Shown here piece by piece: positions 7,041 through 19,566 of a stretch of 64,000 nt of DNA; position 1 is the stretch's first letter; every line of letters begins with the position of its first letter. A program made the position numbers and the translations under genes. The notes beneath the pieces were generated by a model. The model worked only from the letters and a program-made list of their open reading frames with translations, did no database searches and had not been told where the DNA came from. The DNA is from Pelagibius sp. Alg239-R121 (GTDB taxonomy: Bacteria; Pseudomonadota; Alphaproteobacteria; Kiloniellales; Kiloniellaceae): contig NZ_CAMZOF010000009.1 in the NCBI RefSeq assembly GCF_947331435.1, forward strand, positions 186,001-250,000, given 5' to 3'.

Positions 7041-7784
7041 GTGTCGAACATTCGGGACATGCCAAACGGGCAAACAATGGAAGTAAGAGTCTGGCGGTCG
7101 GACGGCGAGGGCGGGCGTTTTGAAGGCTTTGACGTTCCACAGCGTGAAAGCCAGACCATTCTCGATGTGGTCTCCTGGATCCAACAGAATGCCGACTCAA
7201 CCCTATCCTATCGCTTTGCCTGTCGCGTGGGAATGTGCGGTTCTTGTGCGATGATGGTCAACGGCCAACCACGCTGGACTTGCCGTACCCACGTAAAAAA
7301 GGTTCTGAAGAACAACAGATTGACGGTTGAGCCGCTGCGCAATCTGCCGGTCATCAAGGACCTGGTCGCCGACATGGATCCGTTTTTTGATAAATGGGTG
7401 AAGGCCGAAGGAGTTTTTCATCCTTCCAAAACCCGCGCCGATGCCATTGAGGCGATCAGCTCGGAACATCCCATGCGCGTCGAGGCGGATCGCGCGATTG
7501 AATGTATTAATTGCGCAGTTTGCTACGCGGCTTGCGATGTCGTGGAGGCAAATCCCGACTATCTCGGTCCCGCCGCGCTGAACCGTGCCTGGACCTTGAT
7601 GAACGACGAACGGGACGCCGGGCATGATGTTCGGCTTGATGCCGTATCGCAAAAGGGTGGATGCCATAACTGCCACTCGCAGCAGAGCTGTGTGAGATTC
7701 TGTCCGAATGAGCTCAACCCGACGGCCTCCATCGCGGGCCTGAAGCGAGAGACAGCGAAGTCTTTTTTTCGGCGAAGGGATTGA
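7041..7784 (+). CDS. Fumarate reductase/succinate dehydrogenase-like iron-sulfur subunit
   Basis: Iron-sulfur subunit of a complex II-like enzyme (247 residues), linking the flavin to the membrane quinone site. The plant-type [2Fe-2S] ligands are C61, C66, C69 (CRVGMCGSC) and C81. The ferredoxin part has CINCAVCYAAC (C155, C158, C161, C165) and C211, C217, C221 (last in CVRFCPNELNP), the spacing of [4Fe-4S] plus [3Fe-4S] clusters. An extra Cys, C208, is next to the third set. NPDYLGPAAL resembles FrdB more than SdhB. It is the first gene of the operon, an unusual order. The GTG start at 7041 has a weak ribosome site; ATG at 7059 or 7077 is possible. Confidence 0.9.
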   Translation: MSNIRDMPNGQTMEVRVWRSDGEGGRFEGFDVPQRESQTILDVVSWIQQNADSTLSYRFACRVGMCGSCAMMVNGQPRWTCRTHVKKVLKNNRLTVEPLRNLPVIKDLVADMDPFFDKWVKAEGVFHPSKTRADAIEAISSEHPMRVEADRAIECINCAVCYAACDVVEANPDYLGPAALNRAWTLMNDERDAGHDVRLDAVSQKGGCHNCHSQQSCVRFCPNELNPTASIAGLKRETAKSFFRRRD

Positions 7785-7787
7785 ACC

Positions 7788-8120
7788 ATGCTGGACTTGA
7801 GACTCTACATGGCGCAGCGCATTTCGGCTTTGATCATGATACCGCTTACCCTCGGGCATATTGCGATGATGATCTACGCGGTGCAGGGCGGTCTGTCGGC
7901 CGGCGAAATCCTGGCACGTACCCAGGGCAGCCTTGCCTGGATGCTGTTTTATGGCAGCTTCGTCGCGGCCGTTTCGGTTCATGCCGCCATCGGTCTTCGC
8001 GTGATCCTCTTTGAGAGCTTTAAGATCAAAGAGACAATTCTCAATGCCTTGAGTTGGACCGTTTTTCTAGGCCTTCTCTACATGGGAGCACGTGCCGTCT
8101 ACGCCGTGACGGCCCTATGA
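7788..8120 (+). CDS. Complex II-like membrane anchor subunit (SdhC/D-type), first
   Basis: A 110-residue protein with three predicted transmembrane helices. The N-terminal MAQRISALIMIPLTLGHIAMM and the central VHAAIGLRVILFE follow the pattern of succinate dehydrogenase/fumarate reductase anchors, in which a His in each region contacts haem b or lines the quinone pocket. It lies three bases after the iron-sulfur subunit gene and overlaps the next gene by ATGA, so the subunits are translationally coupled. Membrane-anchor assignment is firm; haem content is inference. Confidence 0.82.
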   Translation: MLDLRLYMAQRISALIMIPLTLGHIAMMIYAVQGGLSAGEILARTQGSLAWMLFYGSFVAAVSVHAAIGLRVILFESFKIKETILNALSWTVFLGLLYMGARAVYAVTAL

Positions 8121-8458
8121 TCCGCCCGCATAGATCTCATCCGCTCTGGTATGCTTTCTTGCTGCATCGGGTTTCCGGTCTCGCGCTGGTGCTGTTCCTG
8201 CCGCTGCATTTTTACGTCCTGGCCTTTGCGCTTACCCAGCCCGAACGCCTGGACGGGTTTCTGCGGTGGACGGACTATACCATCGTCAAGCTGGCCGAAT
8301 TCGGCTTGGTCTTTCTCCTGGCTATCCACATCTTCGGCGGCCTGAGGCTTCTGGCGCTTGAGTTTCTGCCCTGGTCGCCGCGCCAGAAGACGCTGGCCGC
8401 AAGCGCAGTGGCGGCCTCGTTTTTGGTTTCAGGCACGTTCTTTTTGCAGGCTGTGTGA
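8117..8458 (+). CDS. Complex II-like membrane anchor subunit (SdhC/D-type), second
   Basis: A 113-residue three-helix membrane protein. LLHRVSGLALVLFLPLHFYV is close to the SdhC signature (HR-x-[ST]-G), and IHIFGGLRLLALE matches the second conserved His-Gly-Arg region, so this is the likelier haem-b and quinone-binding anchor. The start at 8117 overlaps the previous stop by four bases. The frame is open to 8054, but that would bury the start deep in the previous gene. It ends within the start of the flavoprotein gene. Confidence 0.85.
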   Translation: MIRPHRSHPLWYAFLLHRVSGLALVLFLPLHFYVLAFALTQPERLDGFLRWTDYTIVKLAEFGLVFLLAIHIFGGLRLLALEFLPWSPRQKTLAASAVAASFLVSGTFFLQAV

Positions 8459-10224
8459 TGATGTCAGACATGAGCAAACTGGAACGGCACGACACGGACA
8501 TCCTGATCCTGGGCACAGGCGGTGCGGGTTTGTTCGCGGCGCTTCACGCGCAAAAGGCAGCACCCGACAAGAAAATCACGATTGCGGTAAAGGGGCTGAT
8601 CGGGAAATGCGGCTGCACCCGCATGGTGCAGGGTGGATACAATGTGGCGCTGGGGCGGGGCGATTCCGTCGAACGCCATTTCATGGACACGATCAAAGGC
8701 GGCAAGTGGCTGCCGGATCAGGATATGGCCTGGAAGCTCTGCAAAACCGCCGTGGAGCGCGTGCGGGAGTTGGAAAACGAAGTCGGATGCTTCTTCGACC
8801 GCAACGTCGACGGTTCGCTGCATCAAAAGGCATTTGCCGGACAGACATTCGATCGTACCGTCCATAAAGGCGATTTGACCGGAATCGAGATTATCAGCCG
8901 GCTGATGGAGCAGGTGCTGGCGCGGCCGCTCGAAAAATTGCAAGAGCATCGGGCCATCAGTCTGATCCCGGCACGGGACGGAAGCGGGTTAGCCGGCGTG
9001 CTTTTCATCGACATGCGAAGCGGCGGTTTTCGTTTCGTGCGCGCGAAGACGGTTTTGATGGCGACGGGCGGTGGCCCGACCATGTATAAATTTCATACAC
9101 CTTCCGGCGACAAGACCATGGATGGTCTGGCGATGGCCCTGCGTGCGGGGCTGCCCTTGCGTGACATGGAGATGGTGCAGTTTCATCCCACCGGTCTGCT
9201 GGCGGGTGAAGATACAAAGATGACCGGCACAGTCCTGGAGGAAGGGTTGCGTGGCGCGGGCGGTCAGCTCTTAAACGGCCATGGCCACCGCTTCATGTTC
9301 GATCTCGACGAAAAAGGCGAACGGGCGACGCGCGACGTGGTCAGCCGGGGCATCTATGACGAGATGCGTAAAAATAACACCTCCGAAAACGGTGGCGTCT
9401 ATATTTCCATGGGACACCTGGGGCCGGACACGGTACGCCAAAAGTTCAAGGGGATGGTCAAGCGCTGCGCGGATAGTGGCTTCGACCTCGCGGCCGGCAA
9501 GGTCGAGGTCGTACCGACGGCGCATTATTTTATGGGCGGCGTTGTTGTGGATCCGGATACCCATACCGCTTTGCCGGGCCTGTATGTTGCAGGTGAAGAC
9601 GCCGGCGGCGCGCATGGCTCGAACCGGCTCGGCGGCAACGGTGTGGCAAATTCCACAGTTTATGGCGGCGTCGCCGGGGATATCATGGGCGCAGATGTTC
9701 AAAGCATGACGGTCCTACGAGATCCGGACGAAACGATCTTGCGGTCGGAGGTCGAGCGTGCCTGCCATCCGCTTGGCAAAAAGCCTGCGAACATCCAGAT
9801 GCTGCGCAAAGCATTGCAGGATGTCATGTGGGACGACGTTGGTGTATTGCGGACTGGTCCCGGGATCGAACGTGGTCTGTCGAGAGTCACGGAGATCGGG
9901 GCCGAACTGATGGAGTTGGGCGTTGCGGGTGAGAATCTCGCCTTCAACCTCAGTTGGCACGATTGGTTGAATCTGCGCAGCCTTGTCGAGATTTCAGAAG
10001 TCATCGCCAAGGCGGCACTGAGCCGGGAAAACTCACGCGGCGCGCATTACCGCGAGGACTTCCCCGAGAGCGGTGAGATTGAGAGCTCCTACTTCACGGT
10101 TGCCCGACAGAGCGATGGCGAGACCAAGGTCACCCGTGAGGCGGTCAGGTTCACCATCGTCAAACCCGGGGAGACCGTGTTGAAAGACGGCGAACCGGAA
10201 AGCCTGGTGGAGGCGGCACAATGA
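8458..10224 (+). CDS. Complex II-like flavoprotein subunit (FrdA/SdhA family, non-standard FAD site)
   Basis: FAD-binding catalytic subunit (588 residues from ATG 8458, which overlaps the preceding TGA by one base). The dinucleotide fold is LILGTGGAGL near residue 20. Against FrdA/SdhA the catalytic set is kept: H243 (FHPTG), R292 (TRDVVSRG), H356 (TAHYFMGG), R390 (HGSNRLGGNG). Two changes stand out. The residue that normally carries covalent FAD (H in SHTVAAEGG) aligns with C53 in GCTRMVQGG. The substrate-contact Thr in MTEGCRG aligns with Glu in LEEGLRG (E261). Noncovalent FAD and a substrate other than plain succinate/fumarate are therefore plausible. L-aspartate oxidase is related, but the linked anchor and iron-sulfur genes point to a respiratory enzyme. 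Confidence 0.88.
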   Translation: MMSDMSKLERHDTDILILGTGGAGLFAALHAQKAAPDKKITIAVKGLIGKCGCTRMVQGGYNVALGRGDSVERHFMDTIKGGKWLPDQDMAWKLCKTAVERVRELENEVGCFFDRNVDGSLHQKAFAGQTFDRTVHKGDLTGIEIISRLMEQVLARPLEKLQEHRAISLIPARDGSGLAGVLFIDMRSGGFRFVRAKTVLMATGGGPTMYKFHTPSGDKTMDGLAMALRAGLPLRDMEMVQFHPTGLLAGEDTKMTGTVLEEGLRGAGGQLLNGHGHRFMFDLDEKGERATRDVVSRGIYDEMRKNNTSENGGVYISMGHLGPDTVRQKFKGMVKRCADSGFDLAAGKVEVVPTAHYFMGGVVVDPDTHTALPGLYVAGEDAGGAHGSNRLGGNGVANSTVYGGVAGDIMGADVQSMTVLRDPDETILRSEVERACHPLGKKPANIQMLRKALQDVMWDDVGVLRTGPGIERGLSRVTEIGAELMELGVAGENLAFNLSWHDWLNLRSLVEISEVIAKAALSRENSRGAHYREDFPESGEIESSYFTVARQSDGETKVTREAVRFTIVKPGETVLKDGEPESLVEAAQ

Positions 10225-11183
10225 TTTCAATCGAGGTGATACAGCGGACCGCTGAACAATTGATGGCCAAGGCTGCGATCGAGATCCCGCAGGACTATCT
10301 GGCAGGATTGCAAACGACCGCGGCCGAAGAAGATGGCGACCTTTCGTCTTTCGTTCTGCAGGCGATGCTGGAGAATTACGAGGCAGCGAAGGAAGATCGC
10401 CGCGCAATGTGCGGCGATACGGGCTGTCCACGCTGGTACGTCAAGATGGGCAACGAAGCCCGGATCGAAGGCGGGCCTGTGGCGCTCGAGGCGGCGCTGC
10501 GCCGGGCGACCGCCAATGCCACCTCCAATATTCCTCTTCGGCCCAACCGCGTACATCCTCTCTGGCGCACCGATCACGACAACAACGTTGGCATCGGTGC
10601 GCCGGAGATCGAATATGGCTTTGAGCCCGATGGCGAATGGATCGATCTGATCACCGTTCACAAGGGAGGGCTTTTCGGAACCGATTATCGGATGCTTTTT
10701 CCATCCGACGGGATCGAGGGAATCAAACGCTTTTTTCTCGACAGCCTGGTCGCCTTCGGGAAACGCGGGCTTGCCTGCCAGCCGGCTATTATTGGGATCG
10801 GCCTGGGCGGCTCGAAAGATGCCTGCATGGTGTTGGGCAAACGTGCGGCTTGCCTTCGCACGGTCGGGGACCGCAATCCGGACCCGAAGATCGCCGCACT
10901 TGAGGACGAGTTCAAGGAGCTGGGAAATTCCATCGGAATGGGGGCCATGGGTTTCGTCGGCAAGTCGATGGTGATCGATTGCAACATCGAGGTCGGTTAC
11001 TGCCATACCGGCGGCATGCAGATGAGCGTGCATGCCTTCTGCCTTTCATCCCGGCGGGCCGTGGCGCGCGTCCATGCGGATGGACGGGTCGAATTCCGGA
11101 CCGACCCGGACTGGTTCACTGATTATCAACGTCGGGAGACGGTGGAATGGGACATTCCGGAAAGCCAAGTAAAGTCCGCCTGA
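10221..11183 (+). CDS. Class I fumarase/L(+)-tartrate dehydratase-like alpha subunit
   Basis: A 320-residue protein of the class I fumarase N-terminal (alpha) family, which uses a site-differentiated [4Fe-4S] cluster to add or remove water from a dicarboxylic acid. Likely cluster ligands are C64 (MCGDTGCP), C186 (ACQPAIIGIGLGG) and C274 (YCHTGGMQMSVHAFC). The KGGLFGTDYR loop replaces the usual KGGGSENK, so this is a divergent member. It overlaps the flavoprotein stop by four bases and the beta-subunit start by 37 bases. Fumarate, tartrate and substituted fumarates or malates are candidate substrates. Confidence 0.85.
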   Translation: MISIEVIQRTAEQLMAKAAIEIPQDYLAGLQTTAAEEDGDLSSFVLQAMLENYEAAKEDRRAMCGDTGCPRWYVKMGNEARIEGGPVALEAALRRATANATSNIPLRPNRVHPLWRTDHDNNVGIGAPEIEYGFEPDGEWIDLITVHKGGLFGTDYRMLFPSDGIEGIKRFFLDSLVAFGKRGLACQPAIIGIGLGGSKDACMVLGKRAACLRTVGDRNPDPKIAALEDEFKELGNSIGMGAMGFVGKSMVIDCNIEVGYCHTGGMQMSVHAFCLSSRRAVARVHADGRVEFRTDPDWFTDYQRRETVEWDIPESQVKSA

Positions 11184-11824
11184 GCACGACGCCGAGCGCG
11201 CAGGCGCTGTCCGCTCTGAAATTGGGCGACATCGTTTATCTGGACGGCTTGATGTACACGGCGCGCGAGGGCGTTTACATGCGCGCGCTCGACGATCAGG
11301 CAAACATACCGATGGAGCTGCCGGCTGAGAGCGCCGCAAACTTTCACTGTTCGCCGGCGGCGACCATCAATGCCGACGGTTCCTTCACGATGGGAGCGGT
11401 GACGGCGACGGCGTCCTTTCGCTTCTCGAAATGGATCGGAGAGTGGATGGCCAAATCTGGCGCCAAGCTGATCGTCGGAAAGGGGGGAATGAGCCAGGCT
11501 GACTACAAGCAACACTTCGTCCCTAATGGGGCGATTTACCTGACGACGGTCGGCTACGGTACCGGTGCTCTGTTGGGGCGCGGGGTCGAAAATGTCGAGG
11601 CCGTGCACTGGAACGAGGAATTGGGCCTGGCCCAGGCCATGTGGGTGCTCAAGTGCAACAACATGGGTCCCTTTATCGTTGCGTCGGACTTAGAAGGTAA
11701 CTGCCTGTTCGAGCGCGAAAACGCCAAGATTTCCGCCTTTATCGAGAAAGCTTACGAAGGCACGCGGCCCGCGACGTTGAAACGGTATGGCGAAACCGAC
11801 GATCGCACTGATGAAGTGATATAG
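11147..11824 (+). CDS. Class I fumarase/L(+)-tartrate dehydratase-like beta subunit
   Basis: The C-terminal (beta) half of a two-subunit class I hydratase, 225 residues. LKLGDIVYLDGLMYTAREG corresponds to the family motif with RDxAH, but here the motif is R40-E41 with Tyr at the His position (Y44). The downstream substrate-binding pattern TASFRF and the Lys loop IVGKGGMS are kept, as are AIYLTTVGYGTGALL and VEAVHWNEELG. The ATG at 11147 lies inside the alpha gene; this fits tight coupling and no nearer start is better. Changed RDxAH residues suggest altered substrate. Confidence 0.84.
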   Translation: MGHSGKPSKVRLSTTPSAQALSALKLGDIVYLDGLMYTAREGVYMRALDDQANIPMELPAESAANFHCSPAATINADGSFTMGAVTATASFRFSKWIGEWMAKSGAKLIVGKGGMSQADYKQHFVPNGAIYLTTVGYGTGALLGRGVENVEAVHWNEELGLAQAMWVLKCNNMGPFIVASDLEGNCLFERENAKISAFIEKAYEGTRPATLKRYGETDDRTDEVI

Positions 11825-11884: not shown

Positions 11885-13063
11885 CTAGTGACCAAAGGTT
11901 TTGGTCAGTTCGAGCGTTTTGAAGCGCTCGATCCCCGGCGGCAGTTCATCGATACCTAGCCCGATATCTTCCGAAAGCTTGAAGTATCCCCCGGCCACCT
12001 GGTTCGCCGCTGCCTTAAAGTCTTCACGCAGCGGGTTGGGATTGACATCGACTTCCAGCAATCCGGAGCCACCTGTCGCCGCCAGAATATGTGCGGAGGC
12101 CATCAACCCGATTCCGCCACCTAAAAAATGCGGACAATAGGTCAAACCTGCCTCCAATGCGCGGTGGGCCACGCCCAGACATCCGCTGATACCGCCCCAC
12201 TTGGCGACATCCGGCTGCACATACTTAAGAACCTTCGAGGTGATCACTCGATCAAAATCGACACGGCCCGCGATGTTCTCGCCGCCCGCGAGCGGGATGT
12301 TCGTTGCGCGCGCGAGTTCAACCCAGTCCGATTCAGGTGCGTCAGCCAGAATTGGTTCTTCCATCCAACCCAGATCCAGGTCTTTCGCGGCATTCAGAAA
12401 GGCCAATGCCTCGGGCAATGACCAGGCCTGATTTGCGTCGGCGAAGAGTCGCTCTCCCGGCTTCAGTGACGCTGCAGTGGCCGACAGTTGGGCGAGGTCG
12501 GCACCGCCCCCAAATCCCACCTTGACCTTGAAGGCACGGTGACCGGCTTTGCGCTGAAGGGTGATGGCGTCGATGCCGTCTTTCACGTGAATTCCGCTTG
12601 CGTAGGCTGGAACGCAATCCAATGCCTTTGCATTGAGGAATGTTCTCAACGGCAGGCCTGCCTTGCGCGCGAAAAGATCATGGACCGCTACGTCGAGCCC
12701 TGCGATCACCTGCCGGAAGGGGCCCCATTCCCCGCACTGCAGGGCTCTGATATGAGTTTGACGTTCCAGTCGGGAAAAGAGTTCGGAAGGCGCTTGGAGC
12801 GTTGTGCCCAGAACCATCTCGGCAAGGTCCAGCATCAAAAGCCGTGCCCTGTGCTCGGCCCCGGCAGCCGGCCAGTTGGCGAACACCTCTCCCCAGCCGA
12901 AGGCACCTTCGGTATCGGTCAAGCGCAGGAAAACCGCCGGTCTGTCGGCCATGATGCCGAAGGAGGTAGAGACCGGAACGCTTAGAGGAACGCGGTATAC
13001 CGACACATCGATCCGATGAAGGCAGGCTTCGGAAGAAGGTACGCTAACCATTCGTGAAGACAT
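11885..13063 (-). CDS. Enolase-superfamily enzyme, mandelate racemase subgroup
   Basis: A 392-residue enolase-superfamily enzyme, which abstracts a proton next to a carboxylate and uses Mg2+. Residues line up with the mandelate racemase set: KVK (K179, K181) on strand 2, metal ligands D209 (FADANQ), E235/E236 (WMEEP) and E262 (GGEN), a His-Asp dyad from D285 (VQPDVAKWGG) and H312 (CPHFLGGG), and E337 (LLEVD). This supports racemase, epimerase or acid-sugar dehydratase chemistry; the substrate is not determined. It is the last gene of a minus-strand operon with a LysR regulator and a TauE-type permease, and overlaps the latter by 20 bases. The first codons offer a second ATG at residue 5. Confidence 0.85.
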   Translation of the reverse strand: MSSRMVSVPSSEACLHRIDVSVYRVPLSVPVSTSFGIMADRPAVFLRLTDTEGAFGWGEVFANWPAAGAEHRARLLMLDLAEMVLGTTLQAPSELFSRLERQTHIRALQCGEWGPFRQVIAGLDVAVHDLFARKAGLPLRTFLNAKALDCVPAYASGIHVKDGIDAITLQRKAGHRAFKVKVGFGGGADLAQLSATAASLKPGERLFADANQAWSLPEALAFLNAAKDLDLGWMEEPILADAPESDWVELARATNIPLAGGENIAGRVDFDRVITSKVLKYVQPDVAKWGGISGCLGVAHRALEAGLTYCPHFLGGGIGLMASAHILAATGGSGLLEVDVNPNPLREDFKAAANQVAGGYFKLSEDIGLGIDELPPGIERFKTLELTKTFGH

Positions 13064-13802
13064 CCCAGGGCAGTTCCCTCAGAAGGAGCACCAATCCGGA
13101 GATCAGCATAAGCACGATCAACAGCCGCCGGAAGTGATCGTCGGTCAGCCGTTTGAATACCGTGATGCCGACCTGCGCGCTGATCAGGGTGACCGGAAAG
13201 GCGGCGGCAATGCTGAGAGTTGTTTCAAGGTCATATCCGCCTTTAATCCACAAGAGACCTGTCGCGAGACTGAGAATAACGACGTTGAACGGCTGCAGCA
13301 CCGCACGCTGTTCCATTTTCGACCAGGGGCGCATAGAACACCACATGGTTGGCAGGGCGCCCGACAGTCCACCGATAGCCCCCAGGATGCCGCCGATGAA
13401 TCCTACACCCATATCGATCACGGGCGTGGGCCGCGTGAGTTTCGGCAGGCTGCGTCGGAATGCAAAGAATCCGCCGTAAAGAATTAGAAAGCCGGCAACC
13501 ACGAGCTTCAAATGCATTGGATTAACATCGGCCAAGAAGCCGATCCCGATGGGTACGCCGATAACGGCCGGAATCATGAAGCGCGACAGGCGTCGCCAGT
13601 CGATCGAACGATGCACCAGCACCACACCCTGAAGGCCACTGGCGACTGACATGACCAGTGAAATGGCAACGGCCTGGACAGGCGGCATAACCTGCAGCCA
13701 CCAGCCGAGGGCAAAAAGCGACGTGCCGAACCCGGCCAGGCCGTTGACGAACCCGCCCGCGCAGGCACCTGCCGCAAGATAGAACAAAAATTCGAGCGTC
13801 AT
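13044..13802 (-). CDS. TauE/SafE-family membrane permease
   Basis: A 252-residue integral membrane protein with about eight predicted helices and the TauE/SafE pattern: Gly-rich N-terminus (AGACAGGFVNGLAGFGTSLFA) repeated at VGFIGGILGAIGGLSGALPT. Characterised relatives export sulfite, sulfoacetate or similar anions or import small anions. It overlaps the lysR stop by four bases and the enolase-family start by 20. The operon setting suggests it moves the substrate or a product of the adjacent pathway. The direction and ion are unknown. Confidence 0.82.
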   Translation of the reverse strand: MTLEFLFYLAAGACAGGFVNGLAGFGTSLFALGWWLQVMPPVQAVAISLVMSVASGLQGVVLVHRSIDWRRLSRFMIPAVIGVPIGIGFLADVNPMHLKLVVAGFLILYGGFFAFRRSLPKLTRPTPVIDMGVGFIGGILGAIGGLSGALPTMWCSMRPWSKMEQRAVLQPFNVVILSLATGLLWIKGGYDLETTLSIAAAFPVTLISAQVGITVFKRLTDDHFRRLLIVLMLISGLVLLLRELPWDVFTNG

Positions 13803-14716
13803 TCAGCGGGCGCTTCTTCTTGACCGAACTTCGGCGCATAGACGCCGATTTTGACCGCCATTAGCAGCTTCTCGACCAGGGCTTCGATAACCCGGAATTT
13901 TACGCTGTCGGGCCGCGAGATCAGCCCCAGTTCGCGTGTGAAAGGAACATCGCTTAGAGAGATATGCTTGAGGGGGAGGGGATTAGGCTGAGTGACACAG
14001 CTGCGCGGTGCAATGGAAACGCCGAGATTGCTGAAAACCATCGGAGAAATGGTTTCCAGGTTTTCCAGTTCCATACTGGTTTTGACCTCGATTTTTTGCT
14101 CCAGCAACCAGTTCTCGATCATGCCACCAACGACAGCGTTTCTCGTGAAGCGAATATAGGGCTGTGTTTCCAGCAAGTACCTGGGGTCGTTGGATGTGGT
14201 TGCCGGGGACGCCAACAACTCCATCACTTCTATCGCGAGGTTTTGCCACACCAGATTCGATTGCAAAACATGAGGCCGGGTGACAATGGCTGCATCCAGC
14301 GCGCCCCGTTCGACCTGTTCTACGAGGCTTGTGGTCAGTTCTTGCACAACGCGGACCGACAGCTCGGGATATTCGGACTTCAGCATGGAAATAGATAAGG
14401 GCACCAGCCCCGTCAGCGACGTTGGGATCGCCCCGAGTTTCAGTTCTCCGCTGAGGCCGTCATCCCCCAGGACGGAGGGAACGATATTCTCGTAGTCCTT
14501 CACGACTTCCCTGGCTTTGGCGACGAGGGCTCTGCCGACGGGCGTTAATTCGGGCACGCGCTTGCTTCGGTCGAAGACCGCTATCTGCCATTCGTCCTCC
14601 AGGGCTTTCATCTGTTGGCTGACGGCGGCATGGGTGACGAAAACAGCATCGGCCGCTGCGCTGAAGGTCCCGTAATCGGCGATCGCAATCAGAGTTTTAA
14701 GCGTTCTAATGGTCAT
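13799..14716 (-). CDS. LysR-type transcriptional regulator
   Basis: A LysR-family regulator with an N-terminal winged helix-turn-helix (RTLKTLIAIADYGTFSAAADA, VTHAAVSQQMKALEDE) and a C-terminal inducer-binding domain. I chose ATG 14716 (305 residues) because family proteins start about three residues before the LKT helix. A TTG at 14752 would add 12 residues but overlaps the proposed operator. It is divergent from the transporter genes and upstream of the permease and enolase-family genes, so it probably controls both arms in response to the transported acid. Confidence 0.88.
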   Translation of the reverse strand: MTIRTLKTLIAIADYGTFSAAADAVFVTHAAVSQQMKALEDEWQIAVFDRSKRVPELTPVGRALVAKAREVVKDYENIVPSVLGDDGLSGELKLGAIPTSLTGLVPLSISMLKSEYPELSVRVVQELTTSLVEQVERGALDAAIVTRPHVLQSNLVWQNLAIEVMELLASPATTSNDPRYLLETQPYIRFTRNAVVGGMIENWLLEQKIEVKTSMELENLETISPMVFSNLGVSIAPRSCVTQPNPLPLKHISLSDVPFTRELGLISRPDSVKFRVIEALVEKLLMAVKIGVYAPKFGQEEAPAE

Positions 14717-14740
14717 GGCTTCAAGAGGATAATTCGTAAG

Positions 14741-14767
14741 TTTTTCTAACAATAATCGTTAGGATTA
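14741..14767. promoter_or_regulatory. Inverted repeat CTAAC-N7-GTTAG, candidate LysR site
   Basis: CTAAC (14746-14750) and GTTAG (14758-14762) form a 17-bp symmetric site in the lysR/transporter intergenic region. Read outward, each arm is a GTTAGNAWWW element (GTTAGGATTA on plus, GTTAGAAAAA on minus). The size and position suit a LysR-family autoregulatory site. The same element occurs twice upstream of the 7041 operon. Confidence 0.5.
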
Positions 14768-14872: not shown

Positions 14873-15856
14873 ATGAAGAAGATGATGGTGGGTGCGCTAA
14901 GTGCCCTGGCCTTGGGCCTGACTGCAGGCGTTGCGGTCGCCGAATACCCCGAACGCGCGGTCACAATGGTTATTCCTTACGGCCCGGGCGGAGCGACGGA
15001 TATCTCAGCGCGTACCCTTGCCGATCCACTCGGCAAAGTCGCGAGCAAACCGCTGGTGATGATCAACAAAACCGGGGCTGGTGGCGCGACCGGGTCGGTC
15101 GCTGTACAAAATGCGAAAAAAGACGGCTACACCATGCTCTTTGCACGCGTCGGCTCACACAGTGTGAATCCGGCGATGAAGGCAACGCTACCCTATACGC
15201 TGGATGATTTCCGTTTTGTCGGTGTTTACGAGATCAACCCGGTTGCCTGCGCCGTCGAGGCGGGCTCGGACATAAAGTCGATGGATGATCTGATCGCCAA
15301 GGTAAAGGGCAGCCCCGGCAGCGTCAGCTACAGTTCTTCGGGTGTTGGCTCATTGCTGCATCTTGCCGGCGCGATGGTGCTGCGCGAGTTCGGCGTCGAA
15401 AAACCACTCGAGCAAGCCACTCATATTCCGCTGAAGGGCGGCGGTGCGGCTGCGACCGCCGTTTTGAACGGCACGGCGACTTTTATCTGCACGAACTCTT
15501 CCGCGCTTGCGAGTTTTGTTTCCAATGGACAGCTTCGTCCGCTGATGGTCACAACCGCTGAGCCAGTGACCGGTTTTGACGCGCCCACGTCTGTCGATCT
15601 CGGAAAACCGGCATTGCAGCAATTGGTCGGCTGGACCGGTATCGCAGGTCCGGCAGGCATGAGCGATGAAGTTGCCGAGGTGTGGGGTAAGTATCTGACG
15701 GAAGCAACAGCCGACGCTGGCTTTCTCGAAAAGATGCAAGCTCGCGGCTCGGTCATTCGCCTGATGGACCCGAAGGAATCGCAGGACTTCATCAACGGGC
15801 AGTACAAGATCTTCCGTGCGTTGGTTGACGAACTTGGGATGCGTATTGAAGGCTGA
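14873..15856 (+). CDS. tctC: Tripartite tricarboxylate transporter substrate-binding protein (TctC/Bug family)
   Basis: A periplasmic solute-binding protein, 327 residues, with a clear signal peptide ending AVAEYPERAV near residue 24. The Bug-family features are present: the first loop VIPYGPGGATDISART, then NKTGAGGATGS, which in characterised members hold the carboxylates of the ligand. Ligands of this family are mostly di- and tricarboxylates, but also nicotinate, aromatic acids and sulfonates. The start is set by AGGGAG seven bases upstream. It leads the transporter operon that continues with tctB and tctA. The ligand is not predictable from sequence alone. Confidence 0.92.
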   Translation: MKKMMVGALSALALGLTAGVAVAEYPERAVTMVIPYGPGGATDISARTLADPLGKVASKPLVMINKTGAGGATGSVAVQNAKKDGYTMLFARVGSHSVNPAMKATLPYTLDDFRFVGVYEINPVACAVEAGSDIKSMDDLIAKVKGSPGSVSYSSSGVGSLLHLAGAMVLREFGVEKPLEQATHIPLKGGGAAATAVLNGTATFICTNSSALASFVSNGQLRPLMVTTAEPVTGFDAPTSVDLGKPALQQLVGWTGIAGPAGMSDEVAEVWGKYLTEATADAGFLEKMQARGSVIRLMDPKESQDFINGQYKIFRALVDELGMRIEG

Positions 15857-15914: not shown

Positions 15915-16424
15915 GTGAGTAGTCGTCATAAGCAATTGGGTATTGGAGGCGCGGCGGTTCTTTCGTCGGCCTTCCTCTTTTTTGTCGGCATTCCCTATGG
16001 AATATCCGCCCCGTCAAATATTCGAAATATCGTCTTGTCGCCTCTGTTCTGGCCTCAGATCCTCGCTGGTCTGATCGGGTTGGTTGGATTGGGGATTCTT
16101 GTGAGTGCCGCGCGGGCAGGGGCAGGTGAAACCGTCACGGCGGGCCAAGACCAAACACCGGATCAAGCCCAAAGCGAACCAGGCAACTGGCTCCGTCTCG
16201 CCGTTATGACAGTGATCCTGGTGGTCTATCTGGCGGCCGTTCCCTGGATTGGATTGGTCTGGGCGTCCATCCCTGCCTTCATCGCCGTTGCGTTCCTCAT
16301 TCAGACTCGCCATCCAAAGACGGCGGTAATCGCCGCAATTCTGGTACCTCTGGTTCTCTACGCTTTCTTCGCGCATGTAGCCGGTGTGGCTGTTCCCCAG
16401 GGCGAATTCGTGAGGCTGCCGTGA
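15915..16424 (+). CDS. tctB: Tripartite tricarboxylate transporter small membrane subunit (TctB)
   Basis: A 169-residue protein with four predicted transmembrane helices, separated after the second helix by a polar loop rich in Gln, Asp and Glu (about residues 62-94). This is the size and layout of TctB subunits. It starts with GTG at 15915 and overlaps the TctA start by four bases. The small sequence conservation of the family means identity rests largely on its place between the binding protein and TctA. Confidence 0.85.
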   Translation: MSSRHKQLGIGGAAVLSSAFLFFVGIPYGISAPSNIRNIVLSPLFWPQILAGLIGLVGLGILVSAARAGAGETVTAGQDQTPDQAQSEPGNWLRLAVMTVILVVYLAAVPWIGLVWASIPAFIAVAFLIQTRHPKTAVIAAILVPLVLYAFFAHVAGVAVPQGEFVRLP

Positions 16425-17917
16425 GTTTCTTCGACAATCTTCTGCTGGGATGGGAGCTGGTCTCGAATATCGAGAGCTTTCTGGCCCTGGCAGTGGGTGT
16501 GGTCGTCGGCGTTATTGCGGGCGCCATTCCGGGCATGTCGGCGACCATGGCCGTTGCGCTGACGCTGCCGTTCACCTTCGCCCTCTCGCCCATCACCGGC
16601 ATTCTTCTTCTGCTCGGCGTCTACAAGGGCGGTATATTCGGCGGAAGCATCCCGGCGATCCTGATTAAGACGCCTGGGACTCCTGCCTCGAGTGCGACGA
16701 TTTTAGATGGCTATCCGCTGGCTGAGAAGGGGCAGGCCGGCAAGGCTCTGGGCATGGCGCTCTATGCGTCATGTACAGCAGATCTGATTTCGAACCTTGC
16801 CCTTATTCTCTTTGCCGGCTGGTTGGCGTCTTTTGCGCTCAATTTTGGACCGCCCGAATTTTTCACGCTGATTCTTTTCTCGCTGACGATTATCGCGGGT
16901 GTCTCCGGACAGAGCTTGCTGCGCGGCGCATTGTCCGCACTCATGGGATTGCTGCTTGCAACCATCGGTCTCGATCTTGTCTACGGAACGAACCGCTTCA
17001 ATTTCAATGATCCCAACCTGATGGGCGGCTTGAATTTCATTGCGGTTCTCATCGGCCTCTTTGCGATTCCCGAGATTCTGACAAAGGTATGGGATCCGCG
17101 CGGTAACGATGGTTCCACGCGCCAACTGGGTGGCAATTGGGTGAGCTTTGCCGAATATAGGGCCTGTTTCAAATCGATCGTACGCGGCAGTGTGATCGGT
17201 GTTTTCTTGGGCAGCATCCCGGGGATCGGTGCCGCGCCGTCGGCTTTCTTGTCCTACAGCGAGGCGCGCCGGAAGTCGCCCAACAGAGAAAACTTCGGAA
17301 AGGGCGAACTTGAAGGTGTTGCCGCCGCCGAGGCCGGAAACAACGGGGTCGCTGGGGCGACACTTATTCCTCTGCTGGCGCTTGGGGTGCCGGGCGATGT
17401 CATTACCGCGATTATCATTGGCGCCTTCATGATCCATGGTCTTCAACCGGGCCCCCTGATGTTCGTGACCAACGCCGATATCATCTACGGCCTTTTCATG
17501 GGTTTGATCATCAGTTCGGTCATTTTGCTTCTGGTCGGCTCTGTTGCCATTCGCGCTTTCCGCTTCGTCGCCGACATTCCGCGCGGCGTGCTGTTCCCGG
17601 CGGTCTTGGTCCTGTGTGTCTTCGGAGTCTTTGCCGTGAACAACAACATCTTCGATATCGGCGTTATGTTTGCCATGGGCGGTCTCGGCTTTCTGATGCT
17701 CCGCTTCGATCTGCCCGCAGCTCCGTTCCTCATCGCCTTCATTCTCGGTCCGTTACTGGAAGATAACTTCCGTCAATCGATGCTGATGTCGGGTGGTTCG
17801 CCGGACGTGCTGGTTCGCGGACCTATCACCTGGGTCTTCTGGACCATGACCGTCATAACTGTGGTGGCCGTAGTTCGCGCCGGCTTCCGAAATTCGAAAC
17901 AAGCAACGCAAAACTAA
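16421..17917 (+). CDS. tctA: Tripartite tricarboxylate transporter large permease (TctA)
   Basis: The 498-residue transport subunit with about twelve predicted helices. The family hallmark GAIPGMSATMAVALTLP appears near residue 33 and a second related motif, GSIPGIGAAPSAFLSY, near residue 265. KGGIFGGSIPAILIKTPGTP is also characteristic. It starts at GTG overlapping tctB. With the binding protein and TctB it forms a complete secondary, ion-coupled uptake system in the inner membrane. Confidence 0.93.
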   Translation: MSFFDNLLLGWELVSNIESFLALAVGVVVGVIAGAIPGMSATMAVALTLPFTFALSPITGILLLLGVYKGGIFGGSIPAILIKTPGTPASSATILDGYPLAEKGQAGKALGMALYASCTADLISNLALILFAGWLASFALNFGPPEFFTLILFSLTIIAGVSGQSLLRGALSALMGLLLATIGLDLVYGTNRFNFNDPNLMGGLNFIAVLIGLFAIPEILTKVWDPRGNDGSTRQLGGNWVSFAEYRACFKSIVRGSVIGVFLGSIPGIGAAPSAFLSYSEARRKSPNRENFGKGELEGVAAAEAGNNGVAGATLIPLLALGVPGDVITAIIIGAFMIHGLQPGPLMFVTNADIIYGLFMGLIISSVILLLVGSVAIRAFRFVADIPRGVLFPAVLVLCVFGVFAVNNNIFDIGVMFAMGGLGFLMLRFDLPAAPFLIAFILGPLLEDNFRQSMLMSGGSPDVLVRGPITWVFWTMTVITVVAVVRAGFRNSKQATQN

Positions 17918-17952: not shown

Positions 17953-19566
17953 ATGAGAGGCGCTGATGTTCTCGTGCAGGCGCTGGCAACGGCTGGCACC
18001 ACGAAGATCTTCAGTCTTTCCGGCAATCAGATCATGCCGGTTTATGATGCCTGCATCGACGCTGGCATCGAGATTATCCACACGCGGCACGAGGCAGCGG
18101 CCGTCTTCATGGCCGAGGCCTGGGCGCAGGTGACGGGTCAAATAGGAGTTGCTCTGGTAACCGCTGCGCCCGGCTTTGGGAACGCACTTGGACCTCTCTA
18201 TTCGGCGCGTGCCTCTGAGAGCCCCCTGCTGCTGTTGACCGGCGACGCGCCCGTTGCGCTGGACGGCAAGGGGGGCTTTCAGGAGCTAGCTCAGGTGGAA
18301 ATCACACGGCCGCTTACCAAAGCGTCCTTGCGCGCGCTGTCGGCGGAGCGAATCGGAGACGATGCAGCACGCCTCATCGAAATCGCAAAATCAGGTCGGC
18401 CAGGGCCGGTGCATATGGCTCTTCCCTTCGATGTGCTCGAAACCCAAGTCGCCGCCGGAACACTGCGGCCGGATGCCGACGCTTTCCGGGACCAAGCAGA
18501 CCTTGCGGTATCGGATCTTACGCTCATCCAGACGGCATTGGAAAAGGCGGAACGTCCGCTTATTCTGACGGGCCCCTGTTTGAATCCTTCGCGCGCCGGT
18601 GACTTGCTGTCCCGCCTTGCGGACGCGGCGGGGGCGCCGGTTGTGCCGATGGAAAGCCCGCGCGGTCTTAACGATCCAGCACTCGGTGATTTGAGGCAGG
18701 TGTTTGAGAAGGCCGATGTGATCGTCAGCCTTGGGAAACCGATCGATTTTATGCTCTCCTTCGGTGACGAAGCGATATTTAAATCCTGTCGCAGCTGGCT
18801 CGTCGTCGATGCGGAACAGCAGGCGCTCGATCGCGCCGAACATAATCTGGAATCGCGTCTGACCTCAGCTTTTCTGGCAAATCCGCGACGCATTGCCGAA
18901 TCCCTGACCGGACAGTTGAAGGCAGCGGACAGCCGTTCTTCCTGGCGGCAAGAGGTCACGACTTTGATCAGCGCTAGGGGCTTCAGACTTGATGAGACTG
19001 CGGAGAGCGGCGCCATTTCGTCAGCTGTTCTTTGCGCTGCCGTTCAAAAGGAGGTTGAAAAATCGCCGCATTCGATCGTCATTTGCGACGGCGGCGAATT
19101 CGGTCAGTGGGCGCAGGCGATCACGAAAGGCGAACGGCGCATCATCAATGGCCCGGGCGGGGCGATCGGGGGCGGCCTGTGTTATGGCATAGGCGCAAAG
19201 AAAGCCTGTCCCGAGGCGCAGGTGGTTGCGCTCATGGGCGATGGGACCGTCGGATTTCACTTTGCCGAGTTTGAGACGGCCGTACGTGAAAACACGCCCT
19301 TTGTTGTGATCGTCGGTAATGACAGGCGCTGGAACGCAGAGCATCAGATTCAGCTGCGGGCCTATGGCGAGGAACGTTTAATCGGCTGCGGTCTCAGCGA
19401 TGCGCGCTACGACCTCGCGGCTGCGGGCCTCGGCGCCCACGGAGAATATGTCCGCGATCTGAGCGAGCTTGATGATGCACTTACGCGGGCGTTTCGTTCA
19501 GGCAAGCCGGCTTGCGTAAATGTCGAAATCGAAGGTCTCGCGGCTCCGGGCGGTGTGAGCCACTGA
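17953..19566 (+). CDS. Thiamine-diphosphate-dependent enzyme (acetolactate synthase-like)
   Basis: A 537-residue ThDP enzyme with the three-domain order of acetolactate synthase, benzoylformate decarboxylase and oxalyl-CoA decarboxylase. The catalytic Glu that activates the cofactor is in HTRHEAAAVFMAEA (E47). The Mg/ThDP motif runs from MGDGTVGFH (about 428) to IVGNDRRWN (about 456), with GND in place of the more usual GNN. Family members decarboxylate 2-oxo acids or ligate them to a second carbonyl. It is 35 bases after tctA, likely in the same operon, so it may cleave a 2-oxo acid produced from the imported compound. The substrate is unassigned. Confidence 0.85.
   Translation: MRGADVLVQALATAGTTKIFSLSGNQIMPVYDACIDAGIEIIHTRHEAAAVFMAEAWAQVTGQIGVALVTAAPGFGNALGPLYSARASESPLLLLTGDAPVALDGKGGFQELAQVEITRPLTKASLRALSAERIGDDAARLIEIAKSGRPGPVHMALPFDVLETQVAAGTLRPDADAFRDQADLAVSDLTLIQTALEKAERPLILTGPCLNPSRAGDLLSRLADAAGAPVVPMESPRGLNDPALGDLRQVFEKADVIVSLGKPIDFMLSFGDEAIFKSCRSWLVVDAEQQALDRAEHNLESRLTSAFLANPRRIAESLTGQLKAADSRSSWRQEVTTLISARGFRLDETAESGAISSAVLCAAVQKEVEKSPHSIVICDGGEFGQWAQAITKGERRIINGPGGAIGGGLCYGIGAKKACPEAQVVALMGDGTVGFHFAEFETAVRENTPFVVIVGNDRRWNAEHQIQLRAYGEERLIGCGLSDARYDLAAAGLGAHGEYVRDLSELDDALTRAFRSGKPACVNVEIEGLAAPGGVSH

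Follow-up and report, generated by a model that had tools for sequence, protein, structure and literature searches.

A six-gene complex II and hydro-lyase operon of Pelagibius sp. Alg239-R121 and its proposed role in 3-sulfopropionate breakdown

We analysed a stretch of 64,000 nucleotides from contig 9 of Pelagibius sp. Alg239-R121 (genome of 8.02 Mb in 48 contigs; NZ_CAMZOF010000009.1, positions 186,001 to 250,000), referred to below as the window, in which six co-directional genes at 7041-11824 encode a complex II-type enzyme together with the two subunits of a class I hydro-lyase. A first-pass annotation, made from the sequence alone, had read these genes as one operon with overlapping starts, in the order B-C-D-A-alpha-beta, and Pfam and NCBIfam domains corroborated all six components. 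The first gene (7041-7784, + strand) encodes an SdhB/FrdB-like iron-sulfur (FeS) subunit, with the Pfam domains Fer2_3 (101 bits) and 4Fe-4S Fer4_17, TIGR00384 at 200 bits (cut-off 88), and cysteine motifs for a 2Fe-2S and two more clusters in its translation. It is followed on the same strand by two membrane anchors, one SdhD-like (7788-8120; Sdh_cyt 34 bits; TIGR02968 26 bits, below its cut-off of 41.8) and one an SdhC-like cytochrome b556 subunit (8117-8458; Sdh_cyt 46 bits; TIGR02970 54.3 bits, cut-off 52.3), and then by the flavoprotein A (8455-10224, +; FAD_binding_2 234 bits, Succ_DH_flav_C 100 bits), which belongs to a separate complex II-like clade and which we propose to be a 3-sulfopropionate dehydrogenase. 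The last two genes encode a class I fumarase/TtdA-like hydro-lyase, called type I below and a proposed sulfoacrylate hydratase, with its alpha subunit at 10221-11183 (+; Fumerase 221 bits; TIGR00722 208 bits, cut-off 100.65) and its beta subunit at 11147-11824 (+; Fumerase_C 73 bits, cut-off 22.2; TIGR00723 106 bits, below its cut-off of 145.15), the true start of the latter being possibly further downstream. The overlapping starts hold for genes 2 to 6, where successive genes share 4, 4, 4 and 37 nucleotides (nt), and not for genes 1 and 2, which are separated by a 3-nt gap. The order also needs amending, as it is the second small protein, not the first, that reaches the cytochrome b556 model: with the anchors typed by their TIGR02968 and TIGR02970 scores, the E. 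coli-style order is B-D-C-A-alpha-beta.

The first four genes share the plan of complex II (succinate:quinone and quinol:fumarate reductases), namely a flavin adenine dinucleotide (FAD) subunit, an FeS subunit and two Sdh_cyt anchors, and differ from it in gene order, in the presence of a hydro-lyase in the operon and in the flavoprotein itself, which is 33, 30 and 34% identical to E. coli SdhA, FrdA and NadB. The flavoprotein scores 416.9 bits on the SdhA/FrdA subfamily model TIGR01812 (cut-off 567) and stays under the curated cut-offs of all NCBIfam models listed (25 of the 28 matching). In a tree of 78 sequences (42 family members, 2 NadB, 1 FrdA and 33 SdhA rows, among which the genome's own sdhA appears twice), a branch with SH-aLRT 100 set the 42 members apart and another, with 99, the SdhA rows; the branches between clades are long, which leaves the deep branching order uncertain. 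Among plasmid relatives (40 of 482 matching plasmid records), identity drops from 47% to 36% or less, with none between. The highest score among the models listed came from thiol:fumarate reductase TfrA (NF004900, 485 bits, cut-off 718); the companion TfrB model is 488 positions long, of which only the first 209 match the FeS subunit here, and the operon also has membrane anchors.

We found that the positions of FrdA H232, E245, R287, H355 and R390, which we take to be the substrate-site residues, are conserved in the 11 family flavoproteins that were aligned with FrdA, SdhA and NadB. In all 11, the position of the His that we take to be the covalent FAD carrier is a Cys (NadB proteins have a Ser there), and the position of FrdA T244 is a Glu. 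The hydro-lyase is, like class I fumarase and L-tartrate dehydratase TtdAB, a two-part Fe-S enzyme; its alpha subunit is 28% identical to TtdA, and three of its cysteines, presumably the Fe-S cluster ligands, align with those of TtdA and FumA. It departs from these enzymes in an alpha loop that has a two-residue gap and different residues compared with KGSGSEN (in the second hydratase type described below), KGGGSAN (FumA) and AGGGCTL (TtdA), and in its beta subunit, where the aligned Thr, Arg and Lys are kept and the second Thr of the T-T motif is an Ala. No equivalog cut-off is reached (NF004885, 199.5 against 276 bits; NF006084, 147.4 against 365 bits). Since catalytic residues are conserved with local substitutions, both enzymes look active, with altered pockets.

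The genome has other candidates for the tricarboxylic acid (TCA) cycle and related roles: contig 1 carries a canonical sdhA (967 bits, cut-off 727) and a FumA-type fumarase (278 bits), contig 3 a fumC (750 bits), and contig 5 a protein resembling NadB, with 37.5% identity to the E. coli enzyme. The first-pass annotation had suggested looking for a separate sdhA and fumC, and had held that a flavoprotein nested within SdhA or FrdA, in a genome with no other sdh, would simply be the TCA enzyme. Both genes were found, and the flavoprotein stands outside SdhA, FrdA and NadB. Because of these separate sdhA, fumC and FumA-type genes, and because the flavoprotein forms its own clade, the operon is not the TCA enzyme. 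The same holds more widely in a survey of 385 genomes sampled from the class, where a separate sdhA was found in 31 of the 32 genomes that carry the flavoprotein (G399 gave no sdhA match), and another fumarase also in 31 of 32, as fumC over its cut-off in 19 and as an additional long class I match in 12 of the remaining 13. An identity as L-aspartate oxidase was rejected, with NadB placed elsewhere in the tree and the NadB models below cut-off.

The first-pass annotation also suggested a survey of the six genes in other genomes, and the set recurs in many bacteria. The 32 bearers among the 385 class genomes were counted at E 1e-140 or better; a search of contigs from 84,980 species gave at least 562 stretches at a loose threshold, of which the best 80 were used. 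Together, the window, 11 plasmid records, 80 genome loci and 31 class-survey loci, less two duplicates, make 121 distinct loci. The flavoprotein lies on plasmids of Sulfitobacter, Paracoccus, Pseudorhizobium NT-26, Methylobacterium, Cupriavidus and Pseudomonas, and Rhodococcus jostii RHA1 and two haloarchaea carry it at 46-50% identity; anchor homologues were not found in these last three by tblastn at E 1e-8, a weak test for small membrane proteins. The hydratase at the 121 loci is of type I in 103, of a second class I type (type II, 33% identical to the first) in 10 and of type II by its beta half in 1, while 2 loci have an ArgH-family protein and 5 have none in reach. An FeS subunit is present at 108 of the 121, several contigs ending early. 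As the hydratase and the FeS subunit recur at flavoprotein loci, and as a search around 30 canonical sdhA genes in these genomes turned up no anchor or hydratase homologue, the six-gene grouping exceeds chance. Three class-survey loci (L137, L162, L165) had no hydratase in reach, the open reading frames (ORFs) tested there matching an O-antigen ligase, DUF2806, DnaB, an S4-domain protein and, weakly, HSDR_N; in the two of these three genomes that were searched for it (G317, G395), a short Fumerase_C match lies on a different contig. In two loci of one genus (L126 in G380, L129 in G207), each flavoprotein match holds one in-frame TGA.

The genes around the flavoprotein point to sulfonates and sulfite. 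In annotated relatives, the neighbours include YeiH-type 'sulfate exporters', SoxC/sulfite dehydrogenases, TauE/SafE proteins, UxaA-family pairs, Ldh-family proteins and 2-hydroxyacid dehydrogenases. The M. nodulans sulfite dehydrogenase is over the SoxC cut-off (607 against 420 bits). In NT-26, a YihU-like reductase has sulfolactaldehyde 3-reductase as its best model (324 bits, slightly below the cut-off of 348), and a succinate-semialdehyde dehydrogenase (SSADH) is over its subfamily cut-off; YihU-like and SSADH-like genes stand together in 3 of the 121 loci (L012, which is NT-26, L072 and L073). Counted over all 121, SSADH-like genes occur at 6, YihU-like at 4, YeiH at 10, TauE-type at 58, sulfite dehydrogenase at 3 and SuyB-like (M. 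radiotolerans query) at 4, and SuyAB-like genes adjoin the flavoprotein in 3 of the 10 type II loci. As a control we used stretches of up to 20 kb round the canonical sdhA of these genomes, comparing 31 flavoprotein loci with 30 sdhA loci, the own genome being excluded on both sides and the reference proteins coming from the window and the plasmid loci rather than the class-survey set. At least one of TauE, YeiH, SuyAB, a ComC-like protein or sulfite dehydrogenase was found at 8 of the 31 flavoprotein loci and at none of the 30 sdhA loci (p 0.005). YeiH was absent from both sets, and SuyAB, Ldh, the TctABC transporter and the TRAP transporter showed no significant difference singly.

Genome-wide co-occurrence across the 385 class genomes points in the same direction. 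A SuyB-like gene (M. radiotolerans query, E 1e-120 or better) was found in 20 of the 32 genomes with the flavoprotein and in 14 of the 353 without, and Xsc in 12 of 32 against 33 of 353. One or the other, that is, a desulfonation exit (CuyA was not searched), is present in 26 of 32, not in every bearer, against 42 of 353. The 32 bearers fall into 17 families, 11 of which have a SuyB-bearing member. In a separate set of 30 bearers, which has no control set, Xsc was over its cut-off in 24 and a SuyB-like gene at 73% identity or more was present in 9. We infer the SuyB label from gene context: the query adjoins ComC-like and 2-hydroxyacid dehydrogenases, and a SuyB-like gene less than 0.5 kb from Xsc in two genomes (G236, G326) lends the label support. 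Counted by hydratase type, a SuyB-like gene occurs in 10 of 20 type I and 8 of 9 type II genomes (one of the latter typed by its beta half; p 0.10), so the types are poorly separated. In the Pelagibius genome itself, the best Xsc match stays below the cut-off (419 against 676 bits), and contig 3 holds a module (L148:9453-16086, G000:C3:610000-629900) of SuyA-like, SuyB-like, TctC-TctA-TctB, 2-hydroxyacid dehydrogenase and Ldh_2 genes. There the SuyB-like protein is 74% identical to the query, with the SuyA-like gene (52%) immediately before it, and the best model of the ComC-like Ldh_2 protein is L-sulfolactate dehydrogenase (194 bits, cut-off 500). Known SuyAB sulfolactate sulfo-lyase modules, with SlcC, ComC and SlcHFG, act on sulfolactate, and the operon described here would feed such modules. 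The SlcHFG transporters, of the tripartite tricarboxylate transporter (TTT) family, import sulfolactate in Roseovarius nubinhibens and Chromohalobacter, according to a passage in PMC5812351.

3-Sulfopropionate is succinate with one carboxylate swapped for a sulfonate. The computation establishes the gene content, the separate clade, the separate TCA enzymes, the altered FAD and active-site positions and the association with sulfonate and sulfite genes. Our preferred reading is that the operon encodes a quinone-linked 3-sulfopropionate dehydrogenase and a sulfoacrylate hydratase, a reading to which we give a probability of roughly 0.65 whichever carbon is hydrated, and which thereby overlaps with the first alternative discussed below. 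The substrate, both reactions, the order of the steps and the roles in transport are what we infer from the genes. We hypothesise that the membrane-bound complex II-fold enzyme oxidises 3-sulfopropionate to 3-sulfoacrylate, with electrons relayed to quinone by FAD and the FeS clusters, and probably by a haem b, and that the fumarase-like hydro-lyase then hydrates sulfoacrylate, the favoured product being 3-sulfolactate. The contig 3 module, with its SuyA-like and SuyB-like proteins, 2-hydroxyacid dehydrogenase, ComC-like protein and TTT system, could cleave 3-sulfolactate to pyruvate and sulfite, a TauE-type protein could export the sulfite, and the TTT system could import the sulfonate. In NT-26, the neighbouring YihU-like reductase and SSADH-like dehydrogenase may make 3-sulfopropionate from 3-hydroxypropanesulfonate. 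The first-pass annotation had proposed a dedicated path that dehydrogenates and then hydrates a succinate-like compound outside the TCA cycle, and the separate flavoprotein clade and the other sdhA, fumC and FumA-type genes support that proposal, with the reactions themselves still conjectural.

The strongest pointer to the substrate is Roseovarius nubinhibens ISM. A thesis cited in PMC11489063 is described there as having this strain use homotaurine via 3-sulfopropionate, sulfoacrylate and sulfolactate; these steps match the proposed chemistry, and the cited passage names no genes. We found that the strain (L038) carries the cluster, its flavoprotein being 78% identical to that of Pelagibius and its hydratase of type I. 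The cluster is also present in several other Roseovarius genomes, so that the match is not unique to R. nubinhibens. This route, together with the SuyAB-like module of the Pelagibius genome, is why we favour sulfolactate as the hydration product. According to passages of PMC11489063, 3-sulfopropionate arises from anaerobic sulfoquinovose and dihydroxypropanesulfonate breakdown and from homotaurine use, Bilophila obtains an electron acceptor from it, and its bacterial degradation was previously unreported; a passage of the review PMC9594981 says that this degradation requires further investigation. We found no assignment of genes to 3-sulfopropionate oxidation in the titles, abstract openings and some passages of the open-licence literature. 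If the proposal is true, complex II has been redirected to a sulfonate, and the cluster, which ranges over 32 of 385 genomes of the class, Cupriavidus, Pseudomonas and Rhodococcus plasmids and haloarchaea, would fill a gap in bacterial organic sulfur recycling. It supplies testable genes for 3-sulfopropionate breakdown, and annotating such genes as succinate dehydrogenase and fumarate hydratase misleads.

Several observations weigh against the 3-sulfopropionate proposal. The gene pcaH, used as a control for metabolic versatility, is also enriched among bearers (22 of 32, against 56 of 353 genomes without the flavoprotein), so that part of the SuyB and Xsc association reflects versatile genomes. 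When genomes are split by pcaH, with p-values that are too small because the genomes are related and relatedness was left uncorrected, the SuyB link is weak among pcaH-negative genomes (2 of 10 with the flavoprotein against 12 of 297 without, p 0.07) and the Xsc link is not significant among pcaH-positive ones (6 of 22 against 7 of 56, p 0.17); the SuyB link stays strong among pcaH-positive genomes (18 of 22 against 2 of 56), and Xsc shows the opposite pattern, with 6 of 10 against 26 of 297 among pcaH-negative ones (p 0.0001). Five of the 20 class-survey type I genomes have neither a SuyB-like gene nor Xsc, so that their sulfolactate would have to leave by a different route. A SuyB-like gene stands beside the flavoprotein in just 1 of the 103 distinct type I loci, and the SuyB query itself matched no curated SuyB model, its match being to a galactarate dehydratase model at a score well under the cut-off. 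Around the flavoprotein, 7 of the 8 loci with flanking sulfite or sulfonate genes are owed to TauE. TauE-family proteins are not sulfite-specific, and a passage of PMC11489063 describes one from E. gilvus as a probable 3-sulfopropionate exporter.

The alternative that survives best, which we regard as unlikely, keeps the dehydrogenase and its substrate and differs in the hydrated carbon. The type I hydratase would hydrate the carbon that bears the sulfonate, giving 3-hydroxy-3-sulfopropionate, a bisulfite adduct that would fall apart into sulfite and malonate semialdehyde, from which MmsA would make acetyl-CoA, with no sulfo-lyase needed. Such a route would suit the five type I genomes without SuyB-like and Xsc genes, and in Pseudomonas MPC6 (L017) an MmsA gene (695 bits) begins at the final base of the beta gene; MmsA is also near the operon in Cupriavidus (L016; 61% identical, on the opposite strand) and, as a short piece of 77% identity, in M. 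nodulans (L015). At 55% identity or more, MmsA is found in just 2 of the 103 type I loci, and it was discarded as a genome-wide discriminator of the hydration products, since all 30 genomes searched have it and its presence is uninformative. SuyB-like genes (at least 50% identical to the M. radiotolerans protein) flank type II loci more often than type I loci (3 of 10 against 1 of 103, p 0.002, with kinship and contig ends uncorrected), which fits the lyase-free route, whereas genome-wide half of the type I genomes, the present one included, do have a SuyB-like gene. The gapped type I alpha loop, with residues other than those of type II and FumA, could likewise signal a different regiochemistry, but TtdA also departs from the KGGGSEN-like loop, and sulfolactate is the intermediate cited for R. 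nubinhibens, whose hydratase is of type I. Were the lyase-free route true, paralogues of complex II and fumarase would mirror succinate dehydrogenase and fumarase for C3 sulfonates, C-S cleavage would be a by-product, and the type II hydratase would represent an independent recruitment with the opposite regiochemistry, feeding SuyAB.

Improbable, in our view, is another sulfonated succinate as the substrate, for example sulfosuccinate oxidised to sulfofumarate, hydrated at the sulfonated carbon and converted to oxaloacetate with loss of sulfite. The chemistry of complex II and fumarase suits this route, as do the neighbours that handle sulfite, with no call on SuyAB, but the route leaves unexplained the co-occurrence of SuyB-like genes, the SuyAB-like, Ldh and 2-hydroxyacid dehydrogenase neighbours and the pairs of YihU-like and SSADH-like genes, and titles and abstract openings of the open-licence literature gave no link of sulfosuccinate to such genes. 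Still less probable is a substrate without a sulfonate, such as a methylated or hydroxylated dicarboxylate, with the sulfonate genes as bystanders of versatile genomes: the pcaH enrichment speaks for it, the TTT, TRAP and LysR neighbours are generic, and 11 of 91 loci share a class III CoA-transferase, but the SuyB link stays strong among pcaH-positive genomes and the sulfite and sulfonate genes flank flavoprotein loci and not sdhA loci. A second succinate dehydrogenase and fumarase pair for the TCA cycle or fumarate respiration is highly improbable and was rejected, as, although it conserves the His, Glu and Arg that serve catalysis in complex II, the flavoprotein has its own clade, the FAD-His and T244 are replaced in the 11 members compared, and nearly all bearers (31 of 32 for each) have a canonical succinate dehydrogenase and another fumarase.

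Downstream of the operon, the window continues with further genes, some of them candidates for a part in the 3-sulfopropionate pathway. On the minus strand, an enolase-superfamily (MR/MLE) enzyme at 11885-13063 (MR_MLE_C 171 bits), possibly a 2-hydroxyacid racemase that might act on a compound such as sulfolactate, overlaps the gene of a TauE/SafE-family transporter at 13044-13802 (TauE 116 bits), a candidate sulfite exporter, of which 53 of the 103 distinct type I loci encode relatives with at least 38% identity. A LysR-type protein at 13799-14752 (-; LysR_substrate, HTH_1) is a candidate regulator of the cluster. On the plus strand, a TTT system formed by TctC (14873-15856), TctB (15915-16424) and TctA (16421-17917), at 112, 55 and 479 bits respectively, is a candidate uptake system, and it is followed by a thiamine-diphosphate (ThDP) enzyme at 17953-19566 (+; TPP_enzyme N/M/C domains) that passes no cut-off of the NCBIfam models listed (25 of 51). 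ThDP homologues lie near 8 of the 31 class-survey flavoprotein loci (four at 50-66% and four at 27-29% identity) and near none of the 30 sdhA controls. Clustering of neighbour ORFs over 91 loci, which is noisy because GC-rich DNA yields many shadow ORFs, placed the enolase-superfamily cluster in 6 of the 91; in the same work, a cluster of 448-aa neighbours first taken for an aminotransferase proved to be a TRAP permease.

Two haloarchaeal plasmids (L019:7536-14533, L021:7503-14471) present a different arrangement. Their flavoprotein and FeS subunit are accompanied by a UxaA-family pair, a protein annotated as TauE/SafE and one of the ArgH family, and neither class I hydratase type was found at these two loci. 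The ArgH-like protein scores 323 bits on ArgH (cut-off 279.5) and 257 bits on the XcbC model (cut-off 575); an XcbC protein of coenzyme M biosynthesis forms sulfoacrylate, which makes this a lead and not a test. The UxaA-family pairs were considered as SuyAB and rejected, their 33-34% identity to M. radiotolerans SuyB being no higher than that shown by other UxaA-family proteins (30-35%). On the Sulfitobacter THAF37 plasmid, a gene annotated as 3-sulfinopropanoyl-CoA desulfinase (L011:24499-25671) lies about 9 kb beyond the operon. Finally, a NIPSNAP-family protein is encoded near the operon in 11 of the 103 type I loci (L012, L014, L017 and eight more).

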